33,500 nt of DNA from Streptacidiphilus anmyonensis. Lineage in GTDB: Bacteria > Actinomycetota > Actinomycetes > Streptomycetales > Streptomycetaceae. Position 1 is the stretch's first letter. Each line of letters begins with the position of its first letter. Position numbers and translations under genes: made by a program. The stretch covers positions 1 to 33,500 of the forward strand of contig NZ_BBPQ01000084.1 in assembly GCF_000787855.1 (NCBI RefSeq), read 5' to 3'. The notes beneath the pieces were generated by a model. That model did not search any database, was not told where the DNA came from, and saw nothing but the letters and a program-made list of their open reading frames with translations. Of this stretch, positions 24,749 to 28,719 are shown piece after piece.

Positions 24749-25756
24749 TCAACCGCCTTCCGCGACGGCCCGGTTGTAGAGGGCGAGCACGTCGTCGTCG
24801 AAGTACGGGCTGTAGGAGACGTCCGGGGTGTCCCCGCCCTGCTGGTAGCCGCCGATGACCCCGATGACCGTGCCGGTGCGCGTGTGCCGGTCGAAGCCGG
24901 TGAGCCAGGGACTGCCGCTGGTGCCCCCGGGGAAGGAGGGGCAGGAGATCTTCATCTGGAAGGCGCTCTGCTGCGTCGTGGTGTTGAAGCACGCGATCGG
25001 CTCGCCCGCGTTCGCGGGGTAGCCGGTGAGCGCGACGGTGCGTCCGAAGCCGGCGTTGACGCCGAGCTTGTTGCCTCCGAGCACCGAGGCGATGGTCTTC
25101 CCGTCGACGGCGCCCAGCACCAGGAACGCCACGTCCAGGTCCGGGTCGGTGGAGTCGATCCAGCGCTGGTCGACCACGATGCTGCGGATCGGCCACTCGC
25201 CCTGCGGCTCGACGCCGTCGCGGTAGCCGGGCACGAAGACGATGTCGGTGTTGTAGCTCCCGCCCTTGCCGCCGTGGACGCAGTGCGCGGCCGTCACCAC
25301 CATGCTCTGGCCCTGGCTCTGCACGACGCTGCCGGTGCAGAAGTGGTCGCCGGTGCCGCTGTGCGCGAAGATCGCGCCGACGCGCGCGGTGACCTGGTTG
25401 GCGGGGGCCGTGGCCGTCTTCCCGCCGTGGGCGGAGACGGCCCGCGTGAGCCGCTCCTGCCTCCACGCCGAGGGCGACGGAAGCGACCGGACGACGGCTT
25501 CGCCGGAGCTTCCGTGCGTCGCGGCGCCGAGCCCGGTCCCGCTGGGAGCCGCGGCCGCGGCCGCCCCCGAGGCCCCGGGGCTCCCGGACGCCGGCGTGCT
25601 GGACGCGGCGGTGCTCCCGCTCCCGCACGCCGCCATCAGCGCGGCGGCCAACGCGACCGCGGCCCCGGTCATGAGCCGGACCCGGGCGACGCTCCGCCGC
25701 GCGGGCCAGGCCCGTCGCTCCCTCAACCGCTCCCGCAGCCGTTCCCGCACACCCAT
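24749..25756 (-). CDS. Lipoprotein trypsin-like serine protease
   Basis: This 335-residue protein begins with an Arg-rich N-region, including RRSVARVRL, and a hydrophobic stretch ending LMAAC, with C44 as the likely lipidated residue. A flexible Ala/Ser/Gly linker follows (45-125). The triad is H158 (VTAAHC), D208 (DLDVAF) and S280 (GTSGSP). It shares long runs with the anchored protease at 20960-21859, for example PGYRDG and the region before the catalytic serine, so the two are paralogs within 4 kb. GGAGGGG lies 8-9 bases before ATG 25756. It would act on the outer face of the membrane. The substrate is unknown. Confidence 0.87.
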   Translation of the reverse strand: MGVRERLRERLRERRAWPARRSVARVRLMTGAAVALAAALMAACGSGSTAASSTPASGSPGASGAAAAAAPSGTGLGAATHGSSGEAVVRSLPSPSAWRQERLTRAVSAHGGKTATAPANQVTARVGAIFAHSGTGDHFCTGSVVQSQGQSMVVTAAHCVHGGKGGSYNTDIVFVPGYRDGVEPQGEWPIRSIVVDQRWIDSTDPDLDVAFLVLGAVDGKTIASVLGGNKLGVNAGFGRTVALTGYPANAGEPIACFNTTTQQSAFQMKISCPSFPGGTSGSPWLTGFDRHTRTGTVIGVIGGYQQGGDTPDVSYSPYFDDDVLALYNRAVAEGG

Positions 25757-25888: not shown

Positions 25889-26881
25889 TCAGCGCCTCGC
25901 GCGGGACGACCGTGCCGGGACGACGAGGAACGCCAGCGCGACGGCCAGCACCACCAGGCCGCACCAGGAGACCCACGGCAGCCGCTCACCCAGCACGACG
26001 ACCCCGAGCACGGCCGCGACCGCCGGCTCGGCCAGCGTCAGGGTCGTGGCCACCTGCGCGCTGGTCCGCCGCAGGCCGTAGCCGAAGAGCCGGTAGGCGA
26101 GGAAGGTGGTGATCACCGCGAGGTGCAGCACCACCGCCGCGCCGCGCGGCGTCGCCAGCCAGGCGAAGCCGCTGCCCAGCAGGACGGGCAGCACCAGCAG
26201 CGCCGCGGCGCCGAACATCGTGCCGAGCACGGCGCCCGAGGCGTGGCCGTGCGCGATGAGCCTGCCGCCGACCAGTGTGTAGACCGCGTACGACAGCCCG
26301 GAGACGGTGGCGAGCGCGACGCCCGGCAGGTCGACGGGCGCGGTGCCGGACGCGAGGTCGGGCCCGAGGACGAGGACCGCGCAGCCGAGGACGGCCGCGG
26401 CCGTGGCGAGCCCCCAGCGGGCGGTCGGCCGCGCCTGACCGGTCAGCCACGCCAGCAGGCCGGTGAAGACCGGCGCGCTGCCGAGGGCGACCACCGTCGA
26501 GACGGCCACGCCGGAGCGCGCCACCGCCGGGTAGAAGCTGAGCGGGTAGCCGACGACGGCGACCGCGCCGAGGGCCAGCAGCCGGCGTTCCGCCCGGGTG
26601 CAGTGACGCGGGAGCGTCCGCGCGCCGCGGCTGGACAGCAGGAGCAGCAACCCGCCCAGCACCAGCCCCGCCGCCCCGACGGCGACGGGGGACGCGCCCG
26701 CGGGCGCGAAGGACGCCACCGTCCCGGTCGTGCCCCACAGTACGGAGGTGACGAGGATCGGCGCGGGCCCGCGCAGCAGGTCGGGCCCGCTCGCGTGCGG
26801 GTGGGGGCGGGGGTGGGCGGTGGTCGAGACCGCCGGACGGGAGGTGGGGTCGAGCGGAGAAGGAGTCGTGCGATTCGGCAC
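25889..26881 (-). CDS. EamA/DMT-family transporter
   Basis: This 330-residue protein has about ten hydrophobic segments arranged as two EamA repeats. The pattern begins VTSVLWGTTGTVASFAPAGASPVAVG and the second repeat begins near residue 180 (LPGVALATVSGLSYAVYTLVGGRLI). The family exports small metabolites such as amino acids or drugs; the substrate is not readable. The N-terminal 33 residues are Pro/His/Thr-rich and probably cytoplasmic. GTG 26881 is used, with a distant GGAAG. Upstream, on the same strand, lies a candidate 14-codon leader peptide and competing stem-loops (26929-27058). Its expression may therefore be controlled by translation of the leader. Confidence 0.87.
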   Translation of the reverse strand: MPNRTTPSPLDPTSRPAVSTTAHPRPHPHASGPDLLRGPAPILVTSVLWGTTGTVASFAPAGASPVAVGAAGLVLGGLLLLLSSRGARTLPRHCTRAERRLLALGAVAVVGYPLSFYPAVARSGVAVSTVVALGSAPVFTGLLAWLTGQARPTARWGLATAAAVLGCAVLVLGPDLASGTAPVDLPGVALATVSGLSYAVYTLVGGRLIAHGHASGAVLGTMFGAAALLVLPVLLGSGFAWLATPRGAAVVLHLAVITTFLAYRLFGYGLRRTSAQVATTLTLAEPAVAAVLGVVVLGERLPWVSWCGLVVLAVALAFLVVPARSSRARR

Positions 26882-26928
26882 AGTCGTGGACTTCCGTTGT
26901 CGAGAACCGTTCGGGGAAGCGGATTCGC

Positions 26929-27010
26929 AACGGGCGCACGCCAGGGAACCCGGTCTTCGCCGGGTGTGCTTCGAGTCAGACCGTCAGCAGGTGCGCCCGT
27001 TCAGGCGCAC
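26929..27010 (-). promoter_or_regulatory. Candidate attenuator: mutually exclusive stem-loops
   Basis: Read on the minus strand, segment 1 (27010-27004, GTGCGCC, the last leader codons) can pair with segment 2 (26997-26991, GGCGCAC). Segment 2 extended (27001-26991, AACGGGCGCAC) can instead pair with segment 3 (26939-26929, GTGCGCCCGTT), 11 perfect pairs. A third hairpin ACCCGG/CCGGGT lies between (26965-26948). Sharing of segment 2 is the logic of a leader-peptide attenuator. No T-run follows segment 3, so the output mechanism is open. Confidence 0.5.
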
Positions 27011-27045
27011 AGCGGGGGCAGGACGGCGTGCCAGTAGAGGTCCAC
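27001..27045 (-). CDS. Candidate 14-residue leader peptide of the DMT transporter
   Basis: The short frame GTG to TGA encodes MDLYWHAVLPPLCA. A TAGGGT -10 (27053-27058) ends 7 bases before the GTG, the spacing of leaderless Streptomyces promoters, so the frame would begin at the mRNA end. The peptide has Tyr-Trp-His early and a Pro-Pro pair, both plausible ribosome-slowing features. The stop overlaps pairing segments of a stem-loop region leading to the transporter gene about 120 bases downstream. A frame this short can arise by chance; promoter spacing and structure are the support. Confidence 0.5.
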   Translation of the reverse strand: MDLYWHAVLPPLCA

Positions 27046-27052
27046 GGGAGCG

Positions 27053-27058
27053 ACCCTA
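27053..27058 (-). promoter_or_regulatory. -10 element of leader transcript
   Basis: TAGGGT on the minus strand fits the Streptomyces -10 pattern TAnnnT. Seven bases separate it from the GTG of the candidate leader peptide. The -35 region is poor. Confidence 0.5.
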
Positions 27059-27123
27059 CCCGACCCGGGCTCCGGGACGGCAGGGAAAACGGGATCACGA
27101 AGACGGCAGCAGGTCATCTGCAA

Positions 27124-27145
27124 AGGGCCGTCGGCATCAGGCCCT
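27124..27145 (-). terminator. Terminator after the molbindin gene
   Basis: On the minus strand AGGGCC pairs with GGCCCT around a 10-base loop, followed by TTTGC. It starts 5 bases after the molbindin stop. A 12-bp direct repeat (27131-27142 and 27145-27156) overlaps it. Confidence 0.5.
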
Positions 27146-27150
27146 CGGCA

Positions 27151-27570
27151 TCAGGCGGTGGCCAGGGCGACCTCGGTGGACTTGATGAGCGCCACGACGG
27201 AGGAGCCGACCGCGAGGCCGAGGTCGGTGGCGGCGTCCTTGGTGATGGCGGCGGTGAGCTCGCCGCCCTGCACCGAGAGCTTGACGGTCGCCATCGCGTT
27301 GCCGGTCGCGACGTCGGTGACCGTGCCGGGGATCTGGTTGCGGATGCTGACGCCGGTCACCGGCCCGGTGGCGAGGGAGACCTCGGTGGACTTGACCATC
27401 ACGCGCACGGCGCTCCCCTCGGCCAGCCCGAGGTCCTTCACCGCGTCGACCGTGACGGCGGCGGTGATGTCCTGACCTCCGTCGAGCCGCGCCTTCACGG
27501 TCGCCATGGCCTCTCCGGGCGTGACGGACGTGACGGTGCCCGGCAGCTGGTTGCGGATGCTCAGAGTCAT
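27151..27570 (-). CDS. Tandem-Mop molbindin (molybdate-binding protein)
   Basis: This 139-residue protein is two Mop/TOBE domains in tandem: about 1-68 (MTLSIRNQLPGTVTSV ending VMVKSTEVSLA) and about 72-138 (VSIRNQIPGTVTDV ending LIKSTEVALA). Each repeat has the SIRNQxPGTV and KSTEV motifs of molybdate-binding Mop folds, so it likely binds molybdate or tungstate and may store or buffer the ion. ATG 27570 is chosen because GAGG lies upstream and the first repeat begins there. A TATTTT -10 lies at 27588-27593. It neighbours two molybdate-binding-protein genes, which supports the role. Confidence 0.9.
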   Translation of the reverse strand: MTLSIRNQLPGTVTSVTPGEAMATVKARLDGGQDITAAVTVDAVKDLGLAEGSAVRVMVKSTEVSLATGPVTGVSIRNQIPGTVTDVATGNAMATVKLSVQGGELTAAITKDAATDLGLAVGSSVVALIKSTEVALATA

Positions 27571-27876
27571 GACGGACGACCTCGCAAAAAATAGGATCGG
27601 AATTTCCCGGCCTTTCACCGATTACTCTACCGACCCGCTCCGGCCACGGCTTCCAAAACGGCATTCGCCAGGAAACGACGGAGCGTCCCCCAGCAATTCC
27701 CAGACAATTCCTGCTTTCCCCTGGCAGGTGCGAGCCCCCTTCTCGAAGGCCTGGCAGATGCGAGGGAGCGGCGTCATTCAGCTGGGCTAATGCAAGGCTG
27801 ATGTCCCGTGTCGCCTGGCATGCTCCGTTCTAGGCTGGACGACTACGACACCCCCTTGCGACAGGAAGAACCGAAC
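27571..27876. other. Divergent region between molbindin and orphan modA
   Basis: These 306 bases are relatively AT-rich. They hold a TATTTT -10 for molbindin (27588-27593, minus strand), three CCTGGCA copies (27720, 27750 and 27814) and a TAGGCT -10 (27831-27836) for modA. No gene is seen. Confidence 0.6.
27720..27820 (+). repeat. Repeated CCTGGCA motif upstream of orphan modA
   Basis: CCTGGCAGGTGCGAG (27720-27734) recurs as CCTGGCAGATGCGAG (27750-27764), 14 of 15 identical. CCTGGCA appears once more at 27814-27820, within the promoter zone. They may be regulator-binding repeats. Confidence 0.5.
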
Positions 27877-28719
27877 GTGAGTCGCCCCACCACCGCAGGC
27901 GTCATCGCCGCCGCACTCCTGGCGCTCAGCGCCTGCTCCTCCAGCAGTTCGAACAGTTCATCGGCAAACCAGTCCGCCTCGGCTTCGCCGTCCGTGACGG
28001 GAACAGTCACGGTTTTCGCCGCCGCCTCACTGCAACAGACCTTCACCCAACTGGGGAAGATGTTCGAAACCGCTCATCCCGGCACCCATGTCGTCTTCAA
28101 CTTCGGCGGCAGTGACACCCTCGCGGCCAGCATCGTCAACGGGGCGCCGGCCGACGTCTTCGCGTCCGCCAGCCCGGCGACCATGAAGACGGTCACCGAC
28201 AAGGGGGATGCCGCGAGCACCCCGGTCACCTTCGTCAGCAACGAGCTGGAGATCGCCGTCGAGCCCGGCAATCCGATGAACGTCACCACGCTGCAGGATC
28301 TGTCCAAGTCCTCGCTCAAGGTCGTGCTCTGCGCCAAGACCGTGCCCTGCGGCGCGGCCGCCCAGAAGGCGTTGTCCACCGGACATGTGACGGTCACGCC
28401 CGTCAGCTACGAGCAGGACGTCACCGCGGTGCTCACCAAGGTCGAACTGAAGGAGGCCGACGCCGGGCTGGTCTACCAGACGGACGTCAAAGGCTCCGGC
28501 GGCAAGGTCACCGGCGTCAACTTCCCCGAGGCCGCTTCGGCGATCAACGACTACCCGATCGCCACCCTCACCCACGCCCCCAACCCCACCGGGGCCCAGC
28601 AGTTCGTCGCGCTCGTCGAGTCACCCGAAGGACAGAAGGTCCTCACCGACGCCGGCTTCCAGAAGCCCACGGCGTCGTCCTCGTCGCCGTCCTCGTCGCC
28701 GTCCCCGACGTCCTCCTAG
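27877..28719 (+). CDS. modA: ModA-like molybdate-binding lipoprotein (orphan)
   Basis: This 280-residue lipoprotein has a signal ending LSAC, a Ser/Ala-rich linker (about 20-45) and the ModA pattern VTVFAAASLQQTFTQLGKMFE, NFGGSDTLAASIVNGAPADVFASAS and EADAGLVYQTDV. It would capture molybdate outside the cell and hand it to ModB. GTG 27877 is chosen because AGGAAG lies upstream and the signal begins there. TAGGCT (27831-27836) is its -10. The C-terminus has a Ser/Pro tail (TASSSSPSSSPSPTSS) absent from the operon copy. No permease gene follows; it converges on modC with 3 bases between stops, so it may share ModBC. Confidence 0.91.
   Translation: MSRPTTAGVIAAALLALSACSSSSSNSSSANQSASASPSVTGTVTVFAAASLQQTFTQLGKMFETAHPGTHVVFNFGGSDTLAASIVNGAPADVFASASPATMKTVTDKGDAASTPVTFVSNELEIAVEPGNPMNVTTLQDLSKSSLKVVLCAKTVPCGAAAQKALSTGHVTVTPVSYEQDVTAVLTKVELKEADAGLVYQTDVKGSGGKVTGVNFPEAASAINDYPIATLTHAPNPTGAQQFVALVESPEGQKVLTDAGFQKPTASSSSPSSSPSPTSS

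Follow-up and report, generated by a model that had tools for sequence, protein, structure and literature searches.

The window analyzed here, a stretch of 33,500 nucleotides from Streptacidiphilus anmyonensis, carries on its minus strand (27058-26879) an element that is probably a translational attenuator in which a Pro-Pro arrest leader controls an EamA transporter gene. The preliminary description of this region had suggested ribosome-mediated attenuation, perhaps in answer to an amino acid or a ribosome-targeting drug. The frame and the arms proved to be conserved before EamA genes, and the proposal is refined here to control that is most likely translational, with support that is uneven from one helix to the next. 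The parts follow one another as TAGGGT, 7 nt, the leader ORF, a shared arm past the stop, an 11-bp partner 52 nt further on, and EamA. The hexamer 7 bases before a GTG that opens a 14-codon frame, the pairing of the end of this frame with the sequence past the stop (GUGCGCC/GGCGCAC), and the perfect 11-bp pairing with a further segment upstream of EamA were all found on the minus strand as that description had placed them; the pairing of arm 3 with the Shine-Dalgarno sequence is an addition to its picture. The features are as follows.

27053-27058, minus strand: -10 hexamer TAGGGT, read from the sequence, 7 nt from the leader start codon
27001-27045, minus strand: leader ORF MDLYWHAVLPPLCA, start GTG at 27045, 14 codons plus TGA (27003-27001)
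27013-27018, minus strand: codons CCC CCG for Pro10-Pro11, the presumed stall site, from the spacing to the stop
27004-27010, minus strand: segment 1, ORF end GUGCGCC, pairing with GGCGCAC (26997-26991) of segment 2 in the minimum-energy and centroid folds
26991-27001, minus strand: segment 2, shared arm AACGGGCGCAC, perfect 11 bp with segment 3
26948-26965, minus strand: small hairpin ACCCGG-CGAAGA-CCGGGU between segments 2 and 3, from the folds
26925-26939, minus strand: segment 3, of which GTGCGCCCGTT (26939-26929) pairs with segment 2 and the 3' part CCGTTGCGA (26933-26925) with segment 4
26891-26903, minus strand: segment 4 with the EamA Shine-Dalgarno sequence GGAAG (26895-26891), pairing with segment 3 in the predicted fold
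25889-26881, minus strand: EamA/DMT transporter gene, 330 amino acids, start GTG at 26881 (PF00892, E = 2.6e-29)

On erm leaders, ribosomes stall in the presence of macrolides, and the genes that follow encode rRNA methylases; in these systems the stalled ribosome frees segment 2, the 2:3 helix forms, and the Shine-Dalgarno sequence is released. The same four-segment logic is proposed here, with Pro-Pro and a transporter instead. In the proposed mechanism, the transcript would start at the leader start codon and the leader would be translated at once. When the leader is finished quickly, segments 1 and 2 and segments 3 and 4 would pair, so that the Shine-Dalgarno sequence would be covered and EamA would be off. 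A ribosome stalled at Pro-Pro(-Pro) would cover segment 1 to 1 nt past the stop, leaving segment 2 free; 2:3 would then form, the Shine-Dalgarno sequence would be released, and the transporter would be made. Sequence comparison supports the peptide, the near-fixed spacing from Pro-Pro to the stop, the 2:3 helix, and the 3:4 helix that shares its arm; the transcript start, the stall itself, and a trigger in the form of a compound or translation stress that is relieved by EamA export are inferred. The stall may be set by a ribosome-acting compound, by EF-P, or by how tRNA-Pro is charged or modified.

The comparison with relatives proposed in the preliminary description bore it out: frame, shared arm, and partner were conserved before orthologous EamA genes (about 60 to 89% identical to the window protein) and before distantly related ones. 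When 600 nt before Streptomyces-type EamA genes were scanned, a short ORF with Pro-Pro(-Pro) 1 to 3 residues before its stop was found in 78 of the best 80 of at least 468 loci. By title, 69 of these 80 loci belong to Streptomyces, 5 to Kitasatospora, 2 to Streptantibioticus, and 1 each to Actinacidiphila, Frankia, Microtetraspora, and Saccharothrix. The search pattern was present in 79 of the 80, of which L124 was not counted (its ORF continues 13 residues past PPP). The remaining locus, L136 (2171-2500), has no recognized leader ORF and yet retains an arm-3-like GTCGCTGCCCG upstream of EamA, which gives the impression of a leader in decay. Among 29 EamA loci from relatives, TANNNT followed by a 4-to-11-nt spacer and a short Pro-Pro ORF occurred in 25, the other four being L013, L014, L015, and L030. 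Pro-Pro was the search criterion in these EamA-based sets but not in the covariance-model matches described below, and it was also present in all 14 class-scan model matches that have an ORF. A chance control over 958,380 strand-nt around the loci, which took in loci L138 to L161 and hence real copies of the element, gave 6 ORFs with PP in the last 7 residues, of which 5 were real copies and 1 was due to chance. The occurrence of the leader before EamA is not a matter of chance. It is also selective: 25 EamA-domain matches in the window's own genome were grouped manually into 14 places, and the leader was found only at the one in the window, the 13 others being without it. Across the class, a leader was present in 4 of the 23 loci inspected, and many EamA genes of the class go without one.

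The leaders fall into several types. The window subtype, with the consensus M[DN]xxWHx[VA]LPPLxA (L003 to L009, L139, and L140), comprises the window, six relatives (L004 to L009), and two genomes of another family in the class, with leaders MNYHWHKVLPPLSA (L139) and MNYYWHKVLPPLHA (L140). The Streptomyces-type leader is mostly M(H)xTVLPPPAA, ending in VLPPPAA, and further types are represented by MHRLFPVTPPPSS, MHRTFPITPPPAF, MTLIVSPPPAR, MTFTALAPPAA, and MSFPAVLSPPVR. Both Tyr-Trp-His and Pro-Pro had been put forward as stall points. Pro-Pro near the stop is the conserved candidate. Trp-His occurs in 9 of 9 loci of the window subtype, a group that is partly defined by it; it is absent from the leader of L010, which has an EamA of about 60% identity, and the Tyr is incompletely conserved.

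Variation within the Streptomyces-type leader points to selection on the peptide, since in the V-L-P-P-P codons it is almost confined to wobble positions: across 69 equally spaced leaders, the entropy was 0 to 0.26 bits at codon positions 1 and 2 and 0.95 to 1.77 bits at position 3. Start and stop of the leader are conserved, and translation itself is predicted. The leader stops in these 69 loci were TAG in 34, TGA in 25, and TAA in 10. The wobble choice is unusual. With the EamA genes of the 78 Streptomyces-type loci as the codon reference, GTT was used in 33 of 69 leaders versus 1.8%, CTT in 39 of 69 versus 1.6%, and CCT for the second Pro in 38 of 69 versus 4.7%, an overuse of about 12- to 35-fold in V-L-P-P relative to the EamA genes of the same loci (L058 to L137). 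The window leader, with GTC CTG CCC CCG, is without this bias toward U-ending codons. The odd wobble choice may reflect either slower decoding or the RNA fold.

Covariance-model searches reached the window leader from outside its own type. A model built from 35 Streptomyces-type leaders, none of them of the window type, placed the window leader first in a scan of the window (20.0 bits; E = 0.0034), the next match scoring 11.4 bits. With the Streptomyces-type model, matches were found in 16 of 148 genomes of the class, and in a scan of the order in 65 of 99 genomes at E ≤ 0.01, all within the 83 genomes of one genus; 62 of the 65 had a single match and three had weak second matches, and the best 30 of the 68 matches became loci. 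EamA lay downstream on the same strand in 40 of the 42 model matches taken as loci, the EamA match starting about 140 to 270 nt downstream of the element's first base in 39 of the 40 and further off in L170. The two loci with no EamA downstream, L177 and L178, had the two lowest scores of the class scan. At genome scale the Streptomyces-type model (R1) missed the window's own genome, though the leader was found in the window alone. A model of the window's own type (R2), which is in effect a sequence model (its base pairs are one column off), gave strong matches in G000, G087, and G148 only. Six of its 24 weaker matches were inspected (L182 to L187); five were without a PP ORF, and L183 had an unrelated 30-residue ORF off the match.

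The RNA arms were evaluated helix by helix. From 109 leader loci, a gene-start rule dropped seven (L011, L017, L020, L021, L024, L027, and L139), leaving 102, in some of which the gene start is doubtful; of these, 101 entered the analysis of ungapped helices, 83 that of gapped duplexes, and 81 that of masking energies. The Streptomyces-type alignment comprises 64 leaders. Folded from the leader GTG, the window forms the 1:2 hairpin and the 3:4 helix together (-70.2 kcal/mol; z = -2.47; reached by 2 of 200 shuffles), and this is both the minimum-energy and the centroid structure. When the part that a ribosome stalled at Pro-Pro would cover was removed, 2:3 formed instead in the prediction, and this shorter fold was no better than shuffles (z = -0.34). 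Gapped-duplex energies separated real from shuffled sequences poorly in this GC-rich sequence (below the shuffle mean in 62 of 83 for 2:3, 61 for 3:4, and 76 for 1:2) and were replaced by arm swaps (see below) and by an ungapped-helix test, in which 20 of 101 sequences beat all 50 shuffles and 51 of 101 had a P value of ≤0.1.

Arms 2 and 3 change together between clades, as in the pairs CGGGCGCAC/GUGCGCCCG, GCGGGCGGC/GCUGCCCGC, GAAGCGGGGU/ACCCCGCUUC, CCGGGCGCGA/UCGCGCCCGG, and AGCGGGGCGCGU/GCGUGUCCCGCU. Over 16 arm types, the mean energy with the own partner was -20.56 kcal/mol versus -17.32 kcal/mol for permuted partners (standard deviation, 0.86; simple stacking), and 8 of 20,000 permutations were as good in an arm-swap test whose types are partly nonindependent and in which the downstream stretches vary in length between loci; for 4 of the 16 types, at least 10 of the 15 foreign partners pair equally well. 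Among Streptomyces-type sequences, the core of 2:3 (84.8% of cells paired) is nearly invariant and did not covary, and 28 further loci (87% paired) again gave no covariation. The 1:2 hairpin had no covariation support in the 64 leaders of this type, where 78.3% of cells were paired and 257 of 500 shuffles reached that value. The sequence CGTGCGCCCGTT of segment 3 is invariant across the eight sequences L003 to L010.

The 3:4 helix of the Streptomyces type had 72.8% of cells paired, a value matched by 0 of 500 shuffles, and sliding the helix gave no more than 46.2%. The 28 loci outside the alignment, for which 33 of the 42 model matches were entered and three without a Shine-Dalgarno pattern and two duplicates were left out, gave 89% paired cells (2 of 1,000 shuffles as good; slid versions at 47% or below), and about half of them carry the helix in the form CCGCAGA/UCUGCGG. 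Changes on both sides of 3:4 occurred in 11 cells, no more than the slid control gave (17 at +1 and 29 at +2). In the window, where the Shine-Dalgarno region of EamA is CAACGGAAG, the helix is formed by CCGUUG-CGA (26933-26925) with UCG-A-CAACGG (26903-26894) and contains one bulge. In the Streptomyces type, 2:3 and 3:4 draw on one CCCGC in arm 3, and 3:4 ends in the Shine-Dalgarno sequence. Two conserved pairings therefore compete for arm 3, one of them covering the Shine-Dalgarno sequence; they are thus predicted to be mutually exclusive, with covariation support that is uneven. A further candidate helix, joining the spacer that follows segment 2 to the stretch just ahead of the Shine-Dalgarno sequence (A4 columns 112-121 with 263-313), had 28 both-side changes in the 64 Streptomyces-type leaders (0 of 500 shuffles as good; above all slid versions) and was rejected on the 28 other loci, where it was 59% paired with 968 of 1,000 shuffles as high; it is regarded either as restricted to a subclade or as a chance result of post hoc selection. 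A candidate direct pairing of the leader CCUCCC with the Shine-Dalgarno sequence (1:4) was considered by column counts only.

Stall geometry agreed with the proposed switch in most sequences, and the energy effect was weak over the whole set. With the second Pro codon in the P site and the toeprint distance of 16 nt added, 71 of 81 sequences have the predicted ribosome edge 1 nt beyond the stop, 7 have it at +4, and 3 at -2. Masking of segment 1 lowered the predicted energy for opening the window's Shine-Dalgarno sequence from 5.4 to 1.0 kcal/mol. The predicted energy fell in all eight of L003 to L010, beyond shuffled spacers in seven, with means going from about 4.6 to 1.5 kcal/mol, compared with about 3.3 to 3.0 kcal/mol for shuffled spacers. 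Over all 81 sequences, the gain was 2.29 kcal/mol versus 1.63 kcal/mol for shuffles. It surpassed the shuffled spacers in 49 sequences and had a negative value in 19, among them L018 and L026, the two of the TPPP type that were tested.

A leaderless transcript that begins at the leader start codon is what the -10 hexamer and its spacing suggest. Because a simple scan requiring both hexamers gave no two-hexamer promoter at the window element, the -10 assignment is made from the hexamer and the spacing. Among 78 Streptomyces-type leaders, for which TANNNT was a search criterion, the spacer to the leader was 7 nt in 63, 6 nt in 11, and 8 nt in 4. In 66 of these 78 loci, a long upstream ORF terminates at the TAG or TAA of the -10 itself, and the conservation of the -10 therefore has in part another cause. 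At L059, L061, L067, and L096, this upstream ORF is another EamA gene, so that promoter box and stop are overlaid. Leaderless transcripts make up 17% in Streptomyces lividans (PMC8079986).

Three other explanations were weighed against translational attenuation. A stall in the leader might instead alter termination before EamA, either by transcription attenuation or through Rho, and this appears unlikely. Proline-motif leaders with reported transcription control exist in CruR (PMC9426467) and mgtL/mgtP (PMC6460261), and the Streptomyces-type leader ORF is pyrimidine rich; against this, the Shine-Dalgarno sequence lies at the end of the second helix, and a search of the window at 26800-27200 for terminator-like stems followed by T runs gave none. 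Because no such site was found, control is most likely translational, by sequestration of the Shine-Dalgarno sequence.

The short ORF might also have no sensing role, its translation keeping the 5' region open by coupling or reinitiation so that EamA would track growth or translation activity. In the window, about 120 nt separate the leader stop from EamA, and translation of leaderless mRNAs occurs commonly in this group (PMC8079986), both of which would suit such a role; we consider it improbable, as it leaves unexplained the near-fixed distance from Pro-Pro to the stop and the restriction to one EamA gene. That the ORF is incidental to a small-molecule riboswitch or a protein-bound RNA is hardly credible: the conserved arms and the candidate extra helix would speak for an RNA of that kind, whereas the almost wobble-only variation, the conserved stops, the lack of an Rfam match, and the failure of the extra helix to recur in the 28 other loci argue against it.

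The element had not been recognized as a described leader, and the searches agree: no Rfam family matched at its gathering score in the window or in seven loci, or at E ≤ 1 in 26860-27100, and this leader did not turn up in searches of one open paper library or in pertinent passages of its most relevant papers, preprints and supplements lying outside that search. Of the systems compared, the CutF uORF of Rhodobacter capsulatus has, like the leader here, a proline-rich C terminus and a downstream stem-loop over the next Shine-Dalgarno sequence, and slowed translation was proposed to open the stem-loop; the proline end alone gave no stall in a fusion test, and CutF, unlike the leader here, is exported and carries both a Sec signal and a CxxxC copper site (PMC9973294). 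The leaders described here differ in their length of about 10 to 20 residues, in the lack of a signal or metal site as judged by reading, in their predicted position at the very start of the mRNA, and in standing before EamA in actinobacteria. Of the CutF/CruR copper-uORF features, the leader peptides that were read share the proline-rich end only, with no signal and no Cys metal motif. In Salmonella, proline codons in the short leader of mgtL/mgtP slow ribosomes and transporter mRNA goes up, in an EF-P-responsive manner; these leaders differ in acting on transcription elongation, in the interspersed prolines of mgtL, and in bacteria and genes (PMC6460261). The RAPP-type group (ApdA, ApcA, ApdP, and the RQH group) carries Pro-Pro or Pro-Gly near the uORF C terminus, and ApcA and ApdA are actinobacterial; their R-A-P-P-like motifs lie upstream of secA, secDF, or yidC, whereas V-L-P-P-[PL] and similar motifs precede EamA here (PMC10987492). 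Neither an R-A-P-P- or R-A-G-P-like motif nor a sec or yidC gene was found at these loci, where the motifs are VLPPP, VLPPL, VSPPP, TPPP, and the like. Attenuators of Streptomyces and other Actinobacteria also use short leader peptides, leaderless in S. lividans, as with LeuL and TrpL, but they carry cognate codons before biosynthesis, synthetase, and methionine-import genes, and the main texts of the two papers mention neither proline nor EamA (PMC8079986, PMC1262725). The leaders here contain two or three Pro codons. CutF, mgtL/mgtP, and the erm-type leaders come closest in mechanism. By these comparisons, the leader is outside the CutF and RAPP groups and would resemble the mgtL/mgtP and erm-type systems in action without being one of them.

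A wider reading, which we hold tentatively and at somewhat less than an even chance, is that these leaders form an undescribed family of minimal arrest leaders in several actinobacterial families, with Pro-Pro-(Pro) before the stop on a leaderless mRNA, in which a small molecule or the state of proline translation (EF-P or tRNA-Pro) sets the stall and a dedicated EamA exporter answers by removing the compound. The rare U-ending stall codons of the Streptomyces type would then be part of the sensor. If the attenuator reading is right, a widespread leader-peptide switch would operate in a group important for antibiotics (69 of 80 loci titled Streptomyces), one that is easily missed because its gene has only 10 to 20 codons; one EamA of about 14 in the window's own genome would be singled out as regulated by translation itself. 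It would also give a handle on the cargo of orphan DMT transporters and on Pro-Pro stalling as a sensor in actinobacteria.

The transporter family models TIGR00950, RhtA, YedA, and YddG matched the window EamA below their cutoffs, a sequence search gave no solved structure as a relative, and the gene neighborhoods of the loci examined revealed no substrate. EamA follows another EamA gene in four Streptomyces loci examined (L059, L061, L067, and L096). Pyridoxamine-phosphate-oxidase-like genes lie behind EamA on the other strand at L059, L061, L096, and L100, an FMN-binding gene lies behind it at L059 and L096, and a GntR-aminotransferase regulator does so at L075; the neighborhoods of L060, L088, and L098 differ from these. 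Vitamin B6-like compounds are therefore one cheap guess. In the window, the leader-EamA unit adjoins a gene with two TOBE domains (molybdopterin-binding-like; 27154-27573, minus strand) and a gene for a solute-binding protein (SBP_bac_11; 27877-28716, plus strand), surroundings unlike the EamA/FMN-binding ones of several Streptomyces loci. Downstream of EamA lies a gene for a trypsin-like serine protease (24752-25756, minus strand; PF00089, E = 4.4e-7).
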